This document shows positions 6,707 to 21,017 of a DNA stretch of 36,414 nucleotides, in pieces. The DNA lies in contig DWVT01000171.1 in NCBI GenBank assembly GCA_019120075.1, forward strand, positions 1 to 36,414. Direction: 5' to 3'. This DNA is from Candidatus Mediterraneibacter excrementigallinarum. Lineage in GTDB: Bacteria; Bacillota; Clostridia; Lachnospirales; Lachnospiraceae. The position numbers were made by a program, and so were the translations under genes. The stretch's first letter is position 1, and every line of letters begins with the position of its first letter. Under the pieces are notes generated by a model that saw only the letters and a program-made list of their open reading frames with translations, was not told where the DNA came from and did no database searches.

Positions 6707-8800
6707 CTATTTACCAAGATAATCCGCTGTGATGTTCCGGACTTTTTCTGTAACGTAGCTGCTTCCGCCTTTGCCTTTTACGTCTTCGACCATACCTACG
6801 ACGGCAATCGGAGTATCTGTACTATCGGCGGTTTCGCAGATGAACCACCCGCGTTCAATCCCGTCGGTGTCAGACTGGCTGTCTTTTATTTCAGCTGTGC
6901 CTGTCTTGCCCAGCAGGGTAACTCCGTTAATCCGTGCCGACGCTCCGGTCCCGGAAGGATTTTCGATAACCTGGATGAGATCGTTTCTGACTGTTTCAAC
7001 AGCATCTGCGGAAAAGACATTTTCCTTCCACATTTTTCCGGTATATCCGTCCTGACAGAGGAGCGTGGGCTGGATCATGCTGCCATCATTTACAAAGAGC
7101 GAATACATGGAAAGCATGTGTACAGGGTTGACGAGGAGCTGTCCCTGTCCATACCCCGTGTCAGCAAGCTGAATGTCGGAATCGATGTTGTCATCGTCAT
7201 CATAAGTCGATGAGGTGAGGCTCAGTTCAAACGGAATTTCTTCGTCGAAGCCCATGGCTTTAAACCGGTCGATCAGAGTGTCTGCGCCGATCTTCAGAGC
7301 AGCTTTGGCAAAATAGATGTTATCAGAGTAAACAAGTGCATTTTCGAGATTAACCTGATCGCCGTAGTCAGTGAGTGTGGTTACATGATAGTCTCCCCAG
7401 CTCGAATCCTCCTGCCAGCTCAGACCTTCATAACCAAAGTTTTCCTGAGGGTCGATCTTGCCGCTGTCTACTCCGATGACTGCGGTGAGTGCTTTGAATG
7501 TGGAACCGGGAACCCAGGATGCAGCGAAACGATTGGTGAGAGGCCTGTTCTCTGAATTATTCAGTTCCTCCCATCGGCGGTCAGACATTCCCATGATAAA
7601 TTCGTTTGGATCATATCCGGGAGCGCTGACAAGGGACAGAACTTCTCCTGTCTTCGGGTTCATTGCCACAGCCGTACCGTTGTCGGATGAAAACTGATCA
7701 TATGCGGTTTGCTGCAGCGAGGCATCAATGGTGACATGGATATCCTCACCGTTTTTGGCTTCCTGAGAAGCAAGAGTTTCGACCACATTACCGTCACTGT
7801 CAACAATATTGACAGAAGAGCCGTCAACCGCTCTCAGCGTATCTTCATAGGCAAGTTCCAGGCCGGATTTACCGATAACGCTGCCGGCGTGATATCCCTC
7901 CCCTGCTTTTTTCTCCAGATCTTCTGCGGTTACGGACTGAACGTATCCGGTCAGATGTCCTGCTGCCGCTCCAAGCGGATAGATGCGTTCAGCAGCATCG
8001 TTGATCAGGATTCCGGAGATTTCCAGGAGTTTCGATTCAGTGTCCGTATCATCTTTGGAAATCTGTTTCAGGGGGACAAAGGTGTCATCCTGAACATAGG
8101 ATGCGCCAAGAAAGCTGTTTATGTCATCTGTACTCATGTCAAGGAGTTCTGCAATTTTCTGGATGTCTTCCTCCTTGTTCTCGCTCATTTTTCCGGGGAC
8201 AAGGCCGACTTCGGAAACGGTTCCCTGGGTGGCAAGAGCAGTTCCGTTTCGGTCATAGATACTTCCGCGTTCGGCTGTCTCGGTCTCGACCCGTACTTTA
8301 TAATCATCCTGAAGGGACGGGAAGATCAGAGTGGAGTCCCAGCTGATCCGGTAAGCTCCGTCGCTGTCTTTTTCCAGAACTGCCTGGTTGTCAAAAGAGA
8401 CGGAACCGGCGCAGGTGTCCATCGATGTAGAATATGTAACTGTTTCTGTGTCTTTGGAAGAAGATTCCTCTGAAGGAAATGAAACTTTGATATTTGATGC
8501 TTCAATACCTTCGTAAATGTTCTGATTTCTTGAAATAAAATCCTCTTCACTTACAGAATCCTTTGAACTCTCAGTAAGAAGAGCGTACATTCCTTCGTAA
8601 TCTCCGTCATTCAGAAGAGAAAAATAGTTTCTGACAGTATCCTCGGGAATTGGACGGCTGCGGAGATAATGCCACACAAGGAACCCGATGCCGGAGCAGA
8701 GGATCAGGACCAGAAAAATGATCAGAGGGATCAGCCATCTGCGCCGCTTGGGAGGACGGCGTTTTTTCTTGTTTTTCAGATATTGCTTTCTTGTGCTCAT
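6707..8800 (-). CDS. Class B penicillin-binding protein with MecA_N domain
   Basis: A membrane-anchored D,D-transpeptidase that cross-links peptidoglycan outside the cell. The start is ATG 8800, 9-10 nt after GGAGG. The open frame runs further upstream to 8926, but there it crosses the promoter. The 697 residues comprise a basic cytoplasmic N-terminus (KKKRRPPKRRR), one membrane anchor (about 22-45), an NTF2-like MecA_N domain (about 52-165), a PBP dimerisation domain starting RGSIYDRNG (about 179-187), and a transpeptidase domain with the three active-site motifs S433-T-F-K436, S492-D-N494 and K632-T-G-T635. This is the layout of Bacillus PBP3, Staphylococcus PBP2a and Enterococcus PBP5, some of which bind beta-lactams weakly. 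The sequence does not tell whether this one does. Confidence 0.95.
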   Translation of the reverse strand: MSTRKQYLKNKKKRRPPKRRRWLIPLIIFLVLILCSGIGFLVWHYLRSRPIPEDTVRNYFSLLNDGDYEGMYALLTESSKDSVSEEDFISRNQNIYEGIEASNIKVSFPSEESSSKDTETVTYSTSMDTCAGSVSFDNQAVLEKDSDGAYRISWDSTLIFPSLQDDYKVRVETETAERGSIYDRNGTALATQGTVSEVGLVPGKMSENKEEDIQKIAELLDMSTDDINSFLGASYVQDDTFVPLKQISKDDTDTESKLLEISGILINDAAERIYPLGAAAGHLTGYVQSVTAEDLEKKAGEGYHAGSVIGKSGLELAYEDTLRAVDGSSVNIVDSDGNVVETLASQEAKNGEDIHVTIDASLQQTAYDQFSSDNGTAVAMNPKTGEVLSLVSAPGYDPNEFIMGMSDRRWEELNNSENRPLTNRFAASWVPGSTFKALTAVIGVDSGKIDPQENFGYEGLSWQEDSSWGDYHVTTLTDYGDQVNLENALVYSDNIYFAKAALKIGADTLIDRFKAMGFDEEIPFELSLTSSTYDDDDNIDSDIQLADTGYGQGQLLVNPVHMLSMYSLFVNDGSMIQPTLLCQDGYTGKMWKENVFSADAVETVRNDLIQVIENPSGTGASARINGVTLLGKTGTAEIKDSQSDTDGIERGWFICETADSTDTPIAVVGMVEDVKGKGGSSYVTEKVRNITADYLGK

Positions 8801-8828
8801 AGAAAAACCTCCAATGCATGTTTTCTTA

Positions 8829-8857
8829 ATATTACGATTGTAAGATAGAATTGTCAA
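8829..8857 (-). promoter_or_regulatory. Promoter of the PBP gene
   Basis: On the minus strand, a perfect TTGACA (8857-8852), a 17-bp spacer and TAATAT (8834-8829). It lies just upstream of ATG 8800 and excludes the longer open frame as the real start. Confidence 0.8.
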
Positions 8858-8890
8858 TATGAAAAGAAAGTGAAAAGTCGATGTCGTCGG

Positions 8891-8919
8891 TTGCCAGAGG
8901 TTGTCCAAAGGGTTATAAT
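8891..8919 (+). promoter_or_regulatory. Promoter of the PHP-domain gene
   Basis: TTGCCA at 8891-8896, a 17-bp spacer and a perfect TATAAT at 8914-8919. It is divergent from the PBP promoter. Confidence 0.8.
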
Positions 8920-8978
8920 ATAACAAAAGCAGTTTTCCCTGTAAATCAGAAGAGAGAACTGGAAAAGGGGGCTAGCGT

Positions 8979-14550: not shown

Positions 14551-14729
14551 ATAGGGCGTGGACCGTGAGCAAGATGGCACGGAGCGGAATCGAGCTGCAC
14601 GGCAGGAGCCGGACGGAACTGATGAGCTGTCTTTTTATTGTCTTTTGTAAAGGGACCTCATTATCAGCTTTAGCGGGGGATTTGGGCTGGAATGATATTA
14701 TATTGATAATATGGTAAATTGTCAGAAGG

Positions 14730-14782
14730 TTCAGAAAATGGTGAACGGAAGTGCCTGGCACTTTTGTCCACCATTTTCTGAA
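14730..14782. repeat. Palindromic REP-like element with GTGCCTGGCAC core
   Basis: Perfect 14-bp arms TTCAGAAAATGGTG and CACCATTTTCTGAA enclose a second perfect palindrome, GTGCCTGGCAC (14751-14761), with 7-nt joints on both sides. It sits just upstream of the MerR-type promoter. There is no T-run. It resembles the dispersed GTGCC-GGCAC palindromes known in Firmicutes. Confidence 0.6.
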
Positions 14783-14808
14783 TTTTCATACATTTTTGTG
14801 AGAAATGC

Positions 14809-14839
14809 TTGACTGTATACCGGTTATATACTTTAACAT
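14809..14839 (+). promoter_or_regulatory. MerR-type promoter with 19-bp spacer and internal near-palindrome
   Basis: TTGACT (14809-14814) and TAACAT (14834-14839) are separated by 19 bp, longer than the normal 17. The spacer carries GTATA (14815-14819) and TATAC (14827-14831) around a CCGGTTA centre. Long spacers with a dyad inside are the mark of promoters that MerR-family proteins activate by twisting DNA. The gene 62 bp downstream encodes a MerR domain, so autoregulation is the natural inference. The promoter also shows that the ATG at 14805 cannot be the translation start. Confidence 0.7.
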
Positions 14840-14900
14840 GGGCGTAAGCAGGAAACGGAAGTTTGGATTATGGAGTGGAATATTATGGGGAGGTGTGAGG

Positions 14901-16835
14901 TTGAATACAAAACAGGTAGAGGAACTGACCGGGATGTCCCGGCAGAATATCAGGTATTATGAGCGGCAGGGACTGCTTGAACCTGCGCGGGAGGACGGTA
15001 ATGCATACAGGGATTACTCCGGGGAGGATGTCCGCAGGCTGAAATTGATAAAAATGCTGCGGATGTTGGATATGCCTCTCAAAGAAATCGAGGATGTGAT
15101 AAACGGGACTGTTTCCATACAGGAAGCAGCGGGGCGGCAGCGTGAAGAACTTGAGCAGCGGCAACGCCAGCTTCAGGCCGCGATTTCAGTCTGCGGCAGT
15201 CTCCAGAAAGAAAAGGGAGGAAAAGTAGATGTGGACGGCTATCTGGACAAGATGGAAAAAATGTCCGGAGCCGGAGGCGGATTTGCCCGTTTTATGGACG
15301 ATTATAAACAGGTGGTCCTGGAAGAGCGGGAGGGGATGTTTTCCTTCTATGCAGACGGACCGGTCAACACATCCGCCATGTTTGAGCGGGAACTGAGGCG
15401 ATATGCGTCAGAACAGGGAGCGAGATTCCGCATGATCAAAAAAGGAAGATATCCCCAGTTCCTCATGGGGACAGATACCTATACGGCGGTGCGGGTGGTG
15501 GAGAAAAAGAGGGAAAATGAGGGCGGTCCGTCTGTAAAGATCATCTGTGAACGGAAAAATTCTGAAGAAAGCCGGGGGAAGATACCGGAACGGCGAAGGC
15601 GCGCCATGAAAGGCATCCATATCGTGGCAGTCAATATCCGCCGGCACAGACGAAAAAGCATCCTGAATCTGGTGCTCAGTCTTTTGAGTGTGACGGTGCT
15701 GGCTTTTTATCTTGGAAATATCGGAAGCACAAGGCGCATGATCGCGGAACTTCCGGAGGAGCTTACGATAACAGGCGAGATATGGAATATGTGCGGAGAA
15801 CTGAACCATGGGCTTTTTATCTCTCACCAGGTCCTGGAGGATCTGTATGCGTCGCCTCTGATCAGTGAGATCGCAGAGAGTGCGGAACTTATGGGGAAGA
15901 TGGAGAACAGTGTGAGTGTGGAAGAAGAGGAAGGTGTCCAGGACGATGTGACGCTCGTCGGAGTCAACCGGATGAAATGCATCGAGGGGATGACAAAAGA
16001 GGATATTGCCTGGGAGAGTGGGATGGACTGGGAAAAATTCCAGGAGAGCAGCGATGCCTGTCTGGTGAGTGAGTCTTTTGTCCGGGAATCGGGCATTACG
16101 GTGGGAGAAGACTTACGGTTCAATCTTGAGCGGTATTCCCAGGGACTTGCCGGCGTGACGCTGACCCGGGAAGAACTTACGCCGGAAGTATTTCATATTG
16201 CGGGGACATATAAAGAGATCCAGGGGAGAGACGGTGGCAACCCGGATGTGCTGCTTCCCCTTGATGTGGTGAAAAGCATCTATGAAAGAAATGATAAAGT
16301 GTATTTTGCCTCTGCCCTGTCTTTCAGAGTAGCGGATCCGATGCGCCTGGATGAAGTGAAGCAGGAGCTGGAAAACGCCGGGATGAAAGAGATCATTTAC
16401 GGATCCCCAAATTCTTATGTCGGCATCAGCGTGAAACTGACAGACTCGGTATTTATCCGTTCTATGGAGAGCGCGGACAGGAGTCGGGTGTTGCTGGAGA
16501 GCTTTCTTCCGTTTATCTTCCTCATCGTGGCAGCGGCGGGATATATCATCCCAAGCCTTCTCTTTCAGGACCGGAGGGAAGAATATGCGGTCATGAGGGC
16601 ACTGGGAACGGGGAGATATTTCGGGGGAAGCCTGTTCTTTGCAGAACATATCCTGCCGGCTCTTGTGGGTGCCCTGGCCGGAGCAGTTCTGGCGGCGGCA
16701 GCGGGAGCGGTGGATTTTGGAGGCATGCTGCTGGTGTGGGGAACATATATGGCGGTTTACATGCTGGGAGCTGCGGCCGCCATGTGGAAATTCGGAAGAT
16801 TCAGTATTGCGGCTGTGCTTGCGCACAGAGATTGA
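14901..16835 (+). CDS. MerR regulator fused to an FtsX/MacB-type ABC permease
   Basis: One uninterrupted frame of 644 residues. TTG 14901 is chosen because it is 7 nt after GGGGAGG, gives the usual MerR N-terminus (NTKQVEELTGMSRQNIRYYE), and lies downstream of the MerR-type promoter. Residues 1-70 are the MerR winged helix with the RYYERQGLLEPAR recognition region. Residues 72-106 are a Glu/Gln/Arg-rich dimerisation coiled coil. Residues about 110-225 are a soluble effector-like domain. A basic linker (ERRRRAM) leads to the permease: a membrane segment at about 254-274, an extracytoplasmic domain to about 528, then three membrane segments (530-555, about 573-605, 609-625). The FtsX signature EEYAVMRALGTGR is at about 561-573. 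It forms a tight operon with its ATPase and a second permease. An internal ATG at 15606 with GAAGG 6 nt upstream could also yield a free permease. Confidence 0.85.
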   Translation: MNTKQVEELTGMSRQNIRYYERQGLLEPAREDGNAYRDYSGEDVRRLKLIKMLRMLDMPLKEIEDVINGTVSIQEAAGRQREELEQRQRQLQAAISVCGSLQKEKGGKVDVDGYLDKMEKMSGAGGGFARFMDDYKQVVLEEREGMFSFYADGPVNTSAMFERELRRYASEQGARFRMIKKGRYPQFLMGTDTYTAVRVVEKKRENEGGPSVKIICERKNSEESRGKIPERRRRAMKGIHIVAVNIRRHRRKSILNLVLSLLSVTVLAFYLGNIGSTRRMIAELPEELTITGEIWNMCGELNHGLFISHQVLEDLYASPLISEIAESAELMGKMENSVSVEEEEGVQDDVTLVGVNRMKCIEGMTKEDIAWESGMDWEKFQESSDACLVSESFVRESGITVGEDLRFNLERYSQGLAGVTLTREELTPEVFHIAGTYKEIQGRDGGNPDVLLPLDVVKSIYERNDKVYFASALSFRVADPMRLDEVKQELENAGMKEIIYGSPNSYVGISVKLTDSVFIRSMESADRSRVLLESFLPFIFLIVAAAGYIIPSLLFQDRREEYAVMRALGTGRYFGGSLFFAEHILPALVGALAGAVLAAAAGAVDFGGMLLVWGTYMAVYMLGAAAAMWKFGRFSIAAVLAHRD

Positions 16836-16844
16836 GAGGGATAT

Positions 16845-17522
16845 ATGGAACGGATCAGAGTAGAATCAGTGAGTTATTCGTATCAGAACAAATATCAGAC
16901 CGTGGAGGCGGTGAAGGATGTTTCCTGCACTTTTGAGACGGGGACGCTGTACGCGGTCACCGGAGAGTCGGGGAGCGGAAAAAGCACCTTTCTTTCTCTG
17001 CTCGCAGGACTGGACTGTCCGAACAAAGGGAAAATCTTTGTGGATGGGGAAGACCTGAGCGTTATCGACCGGGATGCGTACCGCAGGAACAAGGTGGCGG
17101 TCATTTATCAGGCATTTCACCTTTTCCCCCTGCTCACTGCGCTGGAGAATGTGAGATATCCCTTGGAGATACAGGGAATGTCACGGAAAGAGGCGGGGGA
17201 ACAGGCGAAGGGATATTTAAGTGCTGTCGGGATCAGCGAAGAAAAGTTCGGAAAATATCCGCGGATGATGAGCGGGGGAGAACAGCAGAGGACAGCCATT
17301 GCCCGGGCGATGGCATCCGGAGGAAAGATCGTGCTCGCCGATGAGCCTACGGGGAATCTGGATACAGAGAACGAGGAGAATGTGGTGGAACTTCTCAGGT
17401 CTCTTGCCCATGATCGGGATTTTACAGTCATTCTGGTGACGCACAACCGGGCAATCGCAGAGCGCGCGGATGTACAGATGGTCATGAAGGACGGCAGGCT
17501 GACCGTCAAGCACGGACTGTGA
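16845..17522 (+). CDS. ABC transporter ATP-binding protein (MacB/LolD type)
   Basis: A 225-residue ATPase that powers the adjacent FtsX permeases. Walker A GESGSGKS (40-47), Q-loop Gln89 (VIYQAFHLFPLLTALENV), signature MSGGEQQR (142-149), Walker B IVLADEP with Asp166-Glu167, D-loop GNLD, and switch His200 (LVTHN) are all intact, so it should be active. This set with GEQQR and ADEPTGNLD is typical of the MacB/LolD/BceA branch, which drives mechanotransmission or extrusion rather than import. It starts 9 bp after the fusion gene, with GAGAGGG as the ribosome binding site. Confidence 0.95.
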   Translation: MERIRVESVSYSYQNKYQTVEAVKDVSCTFETGTLYAVTGESGSGKSTFLSLLAGLDCPNKGKIFVDGEDLSVIDRDAYRRNKVAVIYQAFHLFPLLTALENVRYPLEIQGMSRKEAGEQAKGYLSAVGISEEKFGKYPRMMSGGEQQRTAIARAMASGGKIVLADEPTGNLDTENEENVVELLRSLAHDRDFTVILVTHNRAIAERADVQMVMKDGRLTVKHGL

Positions 17523-17532
17523 GGTGGTGGGG

Positions 17533-19365
17533 ATGACATTTTATTACAGTATAAAACAGATGAGGAGAAGCCCGCTTAAAAGCATCCTCTTTTTCCTGCT
17601 CATCGCAGTGTGTGCCTTTTTCCTGGCACTGGGAGGCTCATTCTGGTATATGGGGAGCGATGAGCTCCAGGGGTTTGACGAGAAGTTTACGACAATTGGT
17701 ACTGTGGAGCAGAAATATGAAGGAACAGAGACGGGCTTGAGCTGGAATCCCGAGAAACAGGCATACGAATACTACAGTACAGGATATTTCGGAGAATGGA
17801 TCGATGACAATGTGCTGGCGGATCTTGACGGAGTTGATTATATCCTGGAGCCGAAACAGCGCCCGTATTACGGGGCATATATCGAGGACCTTTACGACGG
17901 GATCGGAAGCCCGAACTGGGGGACTGTGGTCGCGACTCCGGTGGAGACCGGAGCCATGTATCCGTCACTGCTCATGCGCGTCGTCCGCACGATCGACGGG
18001 ACGATGGAGAAGGGAGAGCTGTTTTACCTTTGTGACCATCAGAGCCGGACTCCGGATGTACTGAAGGCAGGGAAGGAGTATGTGATGCAGATTTATATGG
18101 CGACCTTCGCCCATGGTCCGGCGGTCAGCGATGGGGAAGAGGTGGAGGAATACTGGCTCGCCTATGGGATCCATTCCCACCAGTATACGATGGAAAAGGA
18201 ACAGGTCTATGATCCGGTGAATGAAGAGGAACGCTATTATGACGAGGTGACAGACGGTTTCTTTGAGACGGAACGGGGAAAACGGTGGCTCAAGATGGAG
18301 AATTATCAGGATCTCGCCATGCATACGATCCCAGTGCAGCCCACGGACGGAACCTGTCTTCTCATGCACTTTTATGACAACGAAGCACAGATCACGGAAG
18401 GGCGGGACATTACGGAAAAAGAGTATAAAGAAGGCGCAAAAGTATGCCTTGTTCCTGAGAACCTTGCCATGCGCCTTGGAAAGGAACCGGGGGATACTCT
18501 GACGCTTCCTCTTTACTATGCAGATTATTCCCGTTCGGTAGGGGAGGCGTCCATGCTGGGCGCAGGCGGCTGTCAGCTGAACAATATACTGAATGCAAAG
18601 GGAGAACTTTATGAAGTGTTCGATGAACAGGAATATAAGATTGTAGGGATCTACACGGCGGAGGATAAAGGCTCCGGCGCCTACAGCGCCGGAGAAAATG
18701 AAGTGGTGATACCATGGAATGCTGTGCCGGAGGATTCCTGGAAGGACAACATCGTGGGCTGGTATCCGATGAGCGGTGCGACCACATCCTTTCAGATCCC
18801 AAACGGGACCATCGAAGAGTTCCAGGAGAAATGGGATGCCCTGGGAATCGATGAGCTGGAGATCCGTTTTTATGATATGGGATATACCCAGCTTCAGGAA
18901 AATCTGGAGAACCGGAGACTCATGTCAGTGGTATTCCTTATAAGCGGATGTGTGATGGCGGTCATGATCCTGTTTTTCTTTTCAAGCCTGTTCATCACCG
19001 GGCAGCGGGAACGGATTGCAGTGGAGCGCCTTATGGGGCGGACAAAGCGGCAGTGCGCAGTCTCCATCCTGACCGGAATGATTCTTTTAAGTGCCGCAGG
19101 ATGTGCTGTCGGGAGCGCTGCCGGCTGGCTGGCATCAGGGAAGGCGGCGCAGCATGTCGGAGATACCGTTGAGTTTGACCGGGCGTACAGCGATAATGTG
19201 ATCGTGAATACAGAACCCGAGTCAGAGGCAAAACAGGCCGGGCCGGTCCTGCCCTGTATAACCGGGGGTATCCTGCTTGCGGCATCGGCGGCGGTTTCCG
19301 GGGGATATATGGGAAAGGTACTGAGAAAAGAACCACTCAGGATGCTGGGGGAGATCGAGGAGTAA
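17533..19365 (+). CDS. FtsX-family ABC permease, partner of the MerR-permease fusion
   Basis: 610 residues from ATG 17533, 5 nt after GAGGTGG. Two GTG codons just upstream (17524, 17527) overlap that site. The N-terminal membrane segment (about 15-37, ILFFLLIAVCAFFLALGG) is followed by a large acidic extracytoplasmic domain (about 40-455, rich in Tyr, Glu and Trp). Three more segments follow: VVFLISGCVMAVMILFFFSS, a Gly/Ala-rich helix after ERIAVERLMGRTKRQ (the FtsX-type coupling motif), and PCITGGILLAASAAVSGGY. It has no DNA-binding domain, so the two permeases are not equivalent. Its stop is followed by a strong terminator. The substrate is unknown; peptides, lipids or antimicrobial compounds are the usual cargo of such systems. 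Confidence 0.9.
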   Translation: MTFYYSIKQMRRSPLKSILFFLLIAVCAFFLALGGSFWYMGSDELQGFDEKFTTIGTVEQKYEGTETGLSWNPEKQAYEYYSTGYFGEWIDDNVLADLDGVDYILEPKQRPYYGAYIEDLYDGIGSPNWGTVVATPVETGAMYPSLLMRVVRTIDGTMEKGELFYLCDHQSRTPDVLKAGKEYVMQIYMATFAHGPAVSDGEEVEEYWLAYGIHSHQYTMEKEQVYDPVNEEERYYDEVTDGFFETERGKRWLKMENYQDLAMHTIPVQPTDGTCLLMHFYDNEAQITEGRDITEKEYKEGAKVCLVPENLAMRLGKEPGDTLTLPLYYADYSRSVGEASMLGAGGCQLNNILNAKGELYEVFDEQEYKIVGIYTAEDKGSGAYSAGENEVVIPWNAVPEDSWKDNIVGWYPMSGATTSFQIPNGTIEEFQEKWDALGIDELEIRFYDMGYTQLQENLENRRLMSVVFLISGCVMAVMILFFFSSLFITGQRERIAVERLMGRTKRQCAVSILTGMILLSAAGCAVGSAAGWLASGKAAQHVGDTVEFDRAYSDNVIVNTEPESEAKQAGPVLPCITGGILLAASAAVSGGYMGKVLRKEPLRMLGEIEE

Positions 19366-19459: not shown

Positions 19460-20257
19460 TTAAAACCGCTTTTCATATATTTTCTCCACCGCTCCGATCA
19501 CCGCATACAACGCCATTGCCATGATGCACAGCAGCAGGATCGACATGATAAGCCAATCCATCTTGAACACCTGGCTGGAGTAGATGATGAGATACCCAAG
19601 TCCGTTCCTGGCTGCCAGGAATTCCCCGATCACCACGCCCACAAGACATAATCCGATGTTTACTTTCATATTGCTTATGATAGAAGGAATGGAACCGGGC
19701 AGGACGACCTTTGTCAGGGCGTGTCTGCGGTTTCCGTGGAGGGTGTAGATCAGCTTGATCTTTTCCTGATCCACTGTGGTGAAGCTGGTGTACAGGTTCA
19801 TGATGCTTCCGAAGAGAGCCACGGACATTCCGGCTACAATAATCGTGGTCGGCGTAGCGCCGAGCCAGACGATGAGCAGCGGAGCAAGGGCGGATTTTGG
19901 CAGGCTGTTCAGAACCACCATATAGGGCTCCAGTATCTCCGAGAGCCTGCGGCTGCACCACAGCAGGATTGCGGTGAGAATGCTGACAAGTGTGACAAGA
20001 AGAAAACTGGCAATTGTTTCATAGAGGGTTACCCATATATGAAGAAAGATGGAACGGTCCATTACCATTTCCCGGAAACACATGCAGATCTTGGACGGGC
20101 TGCTGAAGATGAAGGAATCAATAAGTCCTGTGTCTGCGCTGACTTCCCAAAGAAGCAGGAACAGGATCAGAATCGCCGCGCGGGCGATGCGGACGGTGAT
20201 GCGGCGCCGTTTCAGAGAACGCAGGAACAATGCCTGCCCGGTTGATATTTTATTCAT
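19460..20257 (-). CDS. ABC importer permease (SsuC/TauC/ThiX type)
   Basis: A 265-residue membrane permease of the BPD_transp_1 type with about six hydrophobic segments. The EAA-loop region, where the permease meets the ATPase, is around KVVLPGSIPSIISNMKVNIGLCLVGVVIGEF, which is typical for nitrate, sulfonate, taurine and thiamine-precursor importers. It overlaps the ATPase gene by 8 bp, so translation is coupled. No periplasmic-type binding protein is encoded on either side within the window, so the substrate cannot be inferred. Confidence 0.9.
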   Translation of the reverse strand: MNKISTGQALFLRSLKRRRITVRIARAAILILFLLLWEVSADTGLIDSFIFSSPSKICMCFREMVMDRSIFLHIWVTLYETIASFLLVTLVSILTAILLWCSRRLSEILEPYMVVLNSLPKSALAPLLIVWLGATPTTIIVAGMSVALFGSIMNLYTSFTTVDQEKIKLIYTLHGNRRHALTKVVLPGSIPSIISNMKVNIGLCLVGVVIGEFLAARNGLGYLIIYSSQVFKMDWLIMSILLLCIMAMALYAVIGAVEKIYEKRF

Positions 20258-21017
20258 GGATGTTCAGCTCCTTCCATATCTTATTGAAATAGTTTTTAAA
20301 CTCCGGAGCATTCCGTCTGGCCAGGGGAGTATCATTTTCCAGAGAAAATGACACAGGCAGGATATCAGACACTGTTGCCGGCCGGGCGCTCAGGATGATA
20401 ATGCGGTCTGCCAGGCTTACTGCCTCGGAGAGATCGTGGGTGACCAGAAGGGCGGTCTTTCCGGATTTTCGGATGATCTGCCCGATATCGTCGCTCACAT
20501 TCAGCCTGGTCTGATAATCCAGCGCGGAGAAAGGTTCATCCAGAAGAAGAAGTTCCGGATCCAGAAGGAGGGTGCGGATCAGGGCGGCGCGTTGCCGCAT
20601 CCCTCCGGAAAGTTCAGAGGGTTTTGAGCGGGCAAACTGAGCCAGGCCGTATTGTTCCAGCAGTTCCTCTGCTCTCTTTTTTGTTTTATCATCCAGAGTT
20701 CCGTTGATCTCTGCCCCCAGAATGATATTCCGGTAGACAGTGCGCCATTCAAACAGATAGTCATGCTGGAGCATATAGCCGATTCGGGATGAGTTTTCTG
20801 TCAGGGGTGCGCCATTCAACAGAATCTCGCCGGATTCCGCCCGCATCAGCCCGGCGATCAGGGAGAGCAGCGTGGATTTGCCGCATCCGGAAGGTCCGAC
20901 GACAGCTGTGAATTCGCCGGGCGACAGGGAAAATGTAATGCCGGACAATGCCTGAGTTTCACCCTCCGGTGTGTGATAGGAATAGGATATATTTTTTAAT
21001 TCCAGTATTGGTTTCAT
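20250..21017 (-). CDS. ABC importer ATP-binding protein (SsuB/TauB type)
   Basis: 255 residues. Walker A GPSGCGKS (41-48), Q-loop in GYMLQHDYLFEW, signature LSGGMRQR (137-144), Walker B LLLLDEP with Asp161-Glu162, and switch His in LVTHDLSEAV. LSGGMRQR with DEPFSALD is characteristic of the sulfonate/taurine/nitrate importer ATPases. It is first in a two-gene operon with the permease. GGAGTG precedes ATG 21017. A clear promoter is not visible; the 238 bp to queH are shared by divergent genes. Confidence 0.93.
   Translation of the reverse strand: MKPILELKNISYSYHTPEGETQALSGITFSLSPGEFTAVVGPSGCGKSTLLSLIAGLMRAESGEILLNGAPLTENSSRIGYMLQHDYLFEWRTVYRNIILGAEINGTLDDKTKKRAEELLEQYGLAQFARSKPSELSGGMRQRAALIRTLLLDPELLLLDEPFSALDYQTRLNVSDDIGQIIRKSGKTALLVTHDLSEAVSLADRIIILSARPATVSDILPVSFSLENDTPLARRNAPEFKNYFNKIWKELNIHE

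Follow-up and report, generated by a model that had tools for sequence, protein, structure and literature searches.

A MerR-type regulator joined in frame to an FtsX-type ABC permease in a subset of Lachnospiraceae

The window analyzed here, a stretch of 36,414 nucleotides from Candidatus Mediterraneibacter excrementigallinarum, encodes on its + strand a protein of 644 aa (14901..16835) in which a complete MerR regulator continues in frame into an FtsX-type ABC permease. This architecture, the central claim of the original prediction, was confirmed by the presence of one open frame, by Pfam, by profile and structural model comparisons and by the relatives of the protein. Among these relatives, some Lachnospiraceae and closely related bacteria have conserved the fusion. 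We consider it an evenly balanced proposition that the protein acts as a one-component regulator integrated in the membrane, in which a working ABC exporter subunit forms the membrane part and the state of the transporter is the signal. Bce-type systems rely on a kinase to read the transporter; for the wider question of how antimicrobial transporters signal their workload to the genome, a regulator covalently joined to its transporter offers a direct test, with one protein and one promoter.

Domain organization of the fused protein and its operon

By open reading frame analysis of the window, a single stop-free frame was found to extend from an ATG at 14805 to 16835. Translation likely starts within this frame at the TTG at 14901, which is preceded by GGGGAGGTGTGAGG (GGGGAGG upstream); the alternative ATG at 14805 sits 4 bases 5' of the -35 box of the promoter described below. 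All domains of the protein lie on the + strand. Residues 1-68 (14901..15104) constitute the MerR winged-helix DNA-binding domain, which was matched by PF13411 (MerR_1) at 69.5 bits versus a cut-off of 21.6 (E 2.6e-19) and which, in its predicted structure, superposed on GlnR, CadR, CueR and MtaN. A dimerization coil, a feature of the MerR family, is present in the model after this helix-turn-helix (HTH) domain (15105..15215, including Cys98) and is followed by a middle domain with an alpha/beta core (residues 106-225, 15216..15575). No recognized family and no confident fold match were detected for the middle domain, its low-confidence model being used for the comparison; it is a candidate ligand or coupling domain. 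A linker and elbow helix (residues 226-248, 15576..15644) form the bridge between the regulator and the FtsX/MacB-type permease (residues 249-644, 15645..16832), which is composed of TM1, an outside domain and TM2-4.

The AlphaFold2 model of the fusion (pLDDT 82.9, pTM 0.56) placed the HTH at residues 1-67, the coil helix at 73-103, the strands and helix of the alpha/beta core at about 146-218 and the elbow helix at 230-248. In the membrane part, TM1 was modelled at residues 250-287, the outside domain at about 288-515, and further helices at 516-557, 572-600 and 606-631. Four TM helices with an outside domain between TM1 and TM2 represent type VII (MacB/FtsX) exporter topology, and the fold matched LolE and MacB, so that the four-helix permease with a large outside domain predicted from the sequence was also seen in the model. 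The Pfam scores of the window permease were slightly under cut-off (MacB_PCD, 24.9 versus 27; FtsX, 21.9 versus 25.5); PF02687 was precomputed for most of the 120 homologues listed, and the permease fold agrees. When a profile of 70 fusions was compared to known structures, the first about 100 positions matched MerR structures and the later part matched LolE, LolF, MacB and FtsX.

Downstream of the fused gene, the + strand encodes a LolD/MacB-like ABC ATPase of 225 aa (16845..17522; Pfam ABC_tran, 112.9 bits), with LolD as its best model (201 bits, under its cut-off of 308), and a second, unfused FtsX permease of 613 aa (17524..19365; Pfam FtsX, 37.4 bits, above cut-off) that starts at either GTG 17524 or ATG 17533. 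The order of fused gene, ATPase and second permease, which had been noted in the window, was found in 26/29 loci with the fusion, among them L032, where only the 3' part of the fused gene is present, and L010 and L013, where the contig ends within the second permease. The sequence of L026 and L028 stops too early to show this order. The two divergent fusions in genomes G036 and G353 keep the same three-gene operon. In M. catenae (L033:6001-7317), the fusion is shortened to 438 aa and retains the HTH, TM1 and the operator, and the ATPase and second permease were absent from the 13.3 kb examined. Missing together from this locus are the ATPase, the second permease and the last part of the fused permease; what remains resembles a transporter fusion reduced to a single-pass regulator.

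Two observations concern neighboring permease genes. In Schaedlerella arabinosiphila (L018:8671-12415), the second permease occurs twice in tandem (49% and 47% to that of the window). In the window, a separate ABC permease and ATPase adjoin the operon on the - strand (19460-21017) and are nearest to SaoP/SaoA and taurine/sulfonate systems, below cut-offs. Elsewhere in the window, a class B penicillin-binding protein of 739 aa is encoded at 6707-8926 on the - strand (best match PBP4(5), 629 bits, under the 700-bit cut-off).

Conservation of the fusion and of an operator-like promoter

By protein search, at least 229 homologues of the fusion were found at E up to 1e-3. Among the 120 homologues listed, 118 covered both halves at 80% or more, the two exceptions being 422 and 438 aa in length; thus, the concern that relatives carry two separate genes, which had been raised with the original prediction, was not borne out. 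Search of a genome collection returned 41 loci, with the fusion in L006-L034 (29 loci), a short MerR protein in L035 and distant unfused permeases in L036-L046. The fusion was whole in 25 loci, cultured isolates included, and partial in L026, L028, L032 and L033. Loci from this search belonged to Mediterraneibacter, Lachnoclostridium, Faecalicatena, Schaedlerella, Claveliimonas, Hespellia, Dorea, Eubacterium and further Lachnospiraceae, the closest being that of Candidatus Mediterraneibacter norfolkensis (98%, L006). When genomes of the family were sampled, with up to 7 candidates scored per genome, a matching frame of more than 600 aa was detected in at least 9/397. In a class-wide sample, at least 4/391 genomes matched at E up to 1e-40 (up to 3 candidates scored each): G000 was the only one of these four with the full fusion, G421 had an unfused permease, and G430 and G027 had short MerR proteins, with G421 and G430 belonging to other families.

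The MerR halves of 18 fusions formed one clade versus 15 short siblings (100/99; 200/200 bootstrap trees). The HTH had the highest mean identity of seven regions compared (0.91; 78 pairs from 13 fusions), with the other regions at 0.62-0.79, including the middle domain at 0.65 and the permease helices at 0.73-0.79. Similarly, the dN/dS of the HTH was 0.01-0.11 across six pairs and was the lowest computable value in four of them, 6/42 ratios being non-computable. In the remaining two pairs, the lowest region was TM1, without amino-acid change (L014/L015), or the outside domain (window/L008; 0.10 versus 0.11 for the HTH). Taken together, the identity and low dN/dS of the HTH argue that the regulator half is no relic.

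Upstream of the fusion start, a MerR-type promoter/operator is located on the + strand at 14809..14839 (TTGACT-GTATACCGGTTATATACTT-TAACAT), with a GTATA-N7-TATAC dyad in the 19-bp spacer between TTGACT and TAACAT. Boxes at -35 and -10 separated by a 19-bp spacer that holds a dyad are the layout of MerR-activated promoters, and a 19-20 bp spacer with an internal dyad in the own promoter is a feature of the MerR family. Loci were scanned with the pattern TTGACTGTA-N16-TAnnnT at up to 250 bp from the fusion start. By this approach, the pattern was found in 31/31 fusion loci at 53-155 bp upstream of the start, a count that overstates independence because the loci are related and the pattern was written after the sites had been seen. 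The 31-locus count leaves aside L006 (a near copy with the same site), L032 (no 5' end) and the duplicates L048, L049 and L051-L053. Matches totalled 31 in the 761,812 bases scanned on both strands, and the pattern was present in 0/62,000 first-order random sequences. The dyad had at most one mismatch in 27/31 loci; the other four (L011, L021, L024 and L034) had two or three. L029, a divergent locus, showed a joint change of both arms, to GTATC/GATAC. In the window genome (3.49 Mb, 94% complete), the site occurred once with up to 3 mismatches, compared to 0 for the control, and a loose pattern gave one match, a count that proves nothing alone because the backward control gave two. In most of the short siblings, the sites are related but not the same (e.g., TTGACCTTATA or TTGACATTATA), and L063 has TTGACTGTATA. 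Since an operator-like promoter is conserved in front of the fused genes, it is very probable that the fused HTH targets its own transporter operon.

A hairpin of 19 pairs, one mismatch, 10 pairs and a loop of 3 lies just 5' of the operator, at 14725-14787 (DNA fold z-score -7.3; 0/200 shuffles equally stable). Its core recurs once elsewhere in the genome, with 3 mismatches, and its right arm is present upstream of L006 and absent from the 130 bases inspected for L007 and L008.

Proposed mechanism and alternative explanations

The fusion, its conservation, the operon and the co-conserved operator-like promoter are observed, and we infer DNA binding at the operator, the direction of regulation and the transporter state as the signal. 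The MerR half, like classical MerR proteins, would bind to the dyad that lies within the unusually long (19-bp) spacer of the promoter of its operon, and the fused permease, second permease and ATPase would form a MacB/LolCDE-type transporter, the presumed substrate of which is a peptide or amphiphile. Engagement of the substrate or ATP cycling would be relayed via the elbow helix and middle domain to the MerR dimer, and the altered dimer would untwist the promoter and raise expression of the whole operon. The outcome would be need-based autoregulation without a kinase. The transporter state is favored as the signal, with a confidence that is at best even. One reason is that the three genes of the transporter are kept together; another is that the regulator is attached via an elbow helix before TM1 that would be expected to move in the transport cycle. 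In its strictest form, in which the exporter would serve as its own transcription factor, cycling would be passed mechanically via the elbow helix to the attached MerR domain, as single-polypeptide flux sensing with two complexes per site; we put this form forward tentatively, as somewhat short of even. The number of complexes would hold if the transporter is a LolCDE-like heterodimer with one fused subunit, in which case a MerR dimer on the operator would tie two transporters together. That each heteromeric complex would have only one MerR half also weighs against the favored reading.

Signalling need not involve the transporter, however, because the middle domain is common to siblings with one or two predicted helices, and L033, with its MerR half and operator but without the whole transporter, counts against the transporter as sensor. 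In these siblings, the HTH and middle domain are likewise present but sit on a plain anchor, predicted to have one or two helices, so that the signal could instead come from a cytoplasmic ligand. Accordingly, an alternative that we regard as possible, if on balance doubtful, is that the middle domain senses a cytoplasmic ligand (or the coil Cys a thiol or redox cue), like BmrR or Mta, and that the permease is anchor and cargo without a part in the signal, in which case the fusion would set dose and place only. This alternative is consistent with the HTH, coil and middle domain shared with the short siblings, with the truncated L033 protein and with Cys98 of the dimer coil (window 15192-15194), which was invariant in 70/70 aligned fusions and had a counterpart at positions 97-100 in 33/35 other MerR proteins of the class that were examined; the residue is a possible thiol, metal or redox site. 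By contrast, the mean identity of the middle domain (0.65) is below that of the HTH (0.91) and permease helices (0.73-0.79), the domain is divergent in the group of L029, L031, L034, L058 and L062, and no ligand-binding fold was recognized in its low-confidence model.

As a further alternative, the gene could give two working proteins. Proteolysis of the linker could free the MerR half, or an internal start could make the permease in addition, and the region between residues 203 and 240 does vary in length among fusions (33-55 residues). An ATG at the boundary (15606, residue 236) is preceded by a weak purine stretch, GAAGGCG, in the window and likewise in L016. This hinge residue is, however, Met in just 4/70 aligned fusions, and a strong Shine-Dalgarno with a start codon near the hinge was found in 5/31 loci, at differing residues. 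No conserved internal start was found at the hinge, near 15550-15606, where the original prediction had considered a possible indel, and production of two proteins is considered unlikely.

It is highly improbable that DNA binding simply tethers the transporter near its own gene or represses the operon constitutively, without sensing: the single operator in the genome at up to 3 mismatches and the operon genes that almost abut would fit such a role, but simple repression does not need the 19-bp spacer promoter, which is a hallmark of MerR-type induction. An assembly artefact, a lost stop codon or a vestigial fusion, for which nothing was found in favor, is for practical purposes ruled out by the conservation of the fusion, HTH and operator, with assembly error dismissed because of the 25 whole loci and the 118/120 listed homologues that are likewise fused.

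Comparison to known systems and to relatives of each half

Both halves of the fusion have well-known counterparts. The HTH, wing and, for most, coil are the same as in MtaN, BmrR, CadR, CueR and GlnR, several of which have promoters with 19-20 bp spacers; these regulators are soluble and are not known to be attached to a permease. The transporter part has the same fold as LolCDE, MacB, S. pneumoniae 5xu1 and YtrEF, for none of which do we know of a DNA-binding domain. The BceB permease has ten helices, whereas the fused permease was modelled with four and the system here has two four-helix permeases. No BceS-type kinase or BceR partner was present among the 18 window ORFs scanned. BcrR has an HTH of another family than the MerR fusion and is a polypeptide distinct from its transporter.

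Like the fusion, BcrR of Enterococcus faecalis is a membrane-bound one-component regulator, in its case for a bacitracin ABC transporter (PMC10269533, PMC3968067). In BceAB-S, the transporter has been proposed to report its conformational cycling (flux sensing) and to raise its own expression, with the difference to the fusion that Bce modules signal via a separate histidine kinase and response regulator (PMC10314905). Membrane one-component regulators known as transmembrane transcription regulators (TTRs) are widespread, with 50,302 reported in 9,673 genomes (Demey et al. 2023, PMC10269533), and have a DNA-binding domain and transmembrane region in one polypeptide, as was found for the fusion by Pfam and the model and for its relatives by hydropathy. 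In the accessible part of the main text of that study, MerR appears only within the name of an author, ABC transporter only in the title of a reference and permease nowhere; MerR-type TTRs may stand in its supplementary tables (PMC10269533). Another gut bacterium, Eggerthella lenta, likewise has proteins that combine an HTH with a membrane domain of multiple passes, the 12-TM LuxR regulators of the DadR type, for which activation of the neighboring gene was shown by deletion and complementation (PMC9734109). The DadR-type proteins differ in that the LuxR HTH is C-terminal, the target is a catabolic enzyme and the membrane part is, in the accessible sections of the report, not called a transporter, a word that is absent from its text (PMC9734109). 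In the open-access literature (titles and abstract starts of the papers listed), no paper was found that describes a fusion of MerR to FtsX or of any other HTH to an ABC permease, and homologues of the fusion, where given database names, are called MerR family transcriptional regulator or hypothetical protein. Membrane-bound transcription factors are known, but among the open-access papers listed there was no example in which the permease of an ABC exporter contains one.

Judged by its sequence relatives, the MerR half belongs to a broader class of membrane-bound MerR proteins from Lachnospiraceae, which mostly carry promoters with 19-bp spacers. Class members of about 274-300 aa share the middle domain of the fusion and are predicted to have one or two helices, those of 213-260 aa have two or three, and those of 335-514 aa have an RDD domain (3/10 scanned; L077, L079 and L081), a Rce1-like domain (1/10; L084) or otherwise unassigned helices. 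Members with one or two helices are L002 and L054-L067 except L058 and L062. These helix counts are from a simple hydropathy scan, in which L075 scores zero helices. The membrane parts of the class (plain anchors, RDD, Rce1-like and FtsX) appear exchangeable, and the class provides a natural parts set for studying signalling across the membrane.

Unfused relatives of the first permease were detected in L107, L108, L109, L110 and L117 (about 25-33% identity, with best matches to the fusions), and none of the five was fused to MerR. In L110 (L110:1686-7963), the genes of the unfused ABC system immediately follow those of a response regulator and a histidine kinase (Pfam); no such pair was seen by eye near L108, L109 or L117, and the contig of L107 begins 345 bases upstream, too near to show one. 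The contrast to kinase-dependent systems drawn in the original prediction gains some support from L110. The neighbors of the L117 system include a CcpM-type radical SAM maturase, a TIGR04066 protein, an S8 protease and an MsbA-like exporter. In L117 and L122:942-3473, the unfused system is beside a maturase set for Cys-rich RiPPs, with CcpM and TIGR04066 above cut-off, and upstream of this set another ABC ATPase is encoded together with two membrane ORFs (L122:3577-6373).
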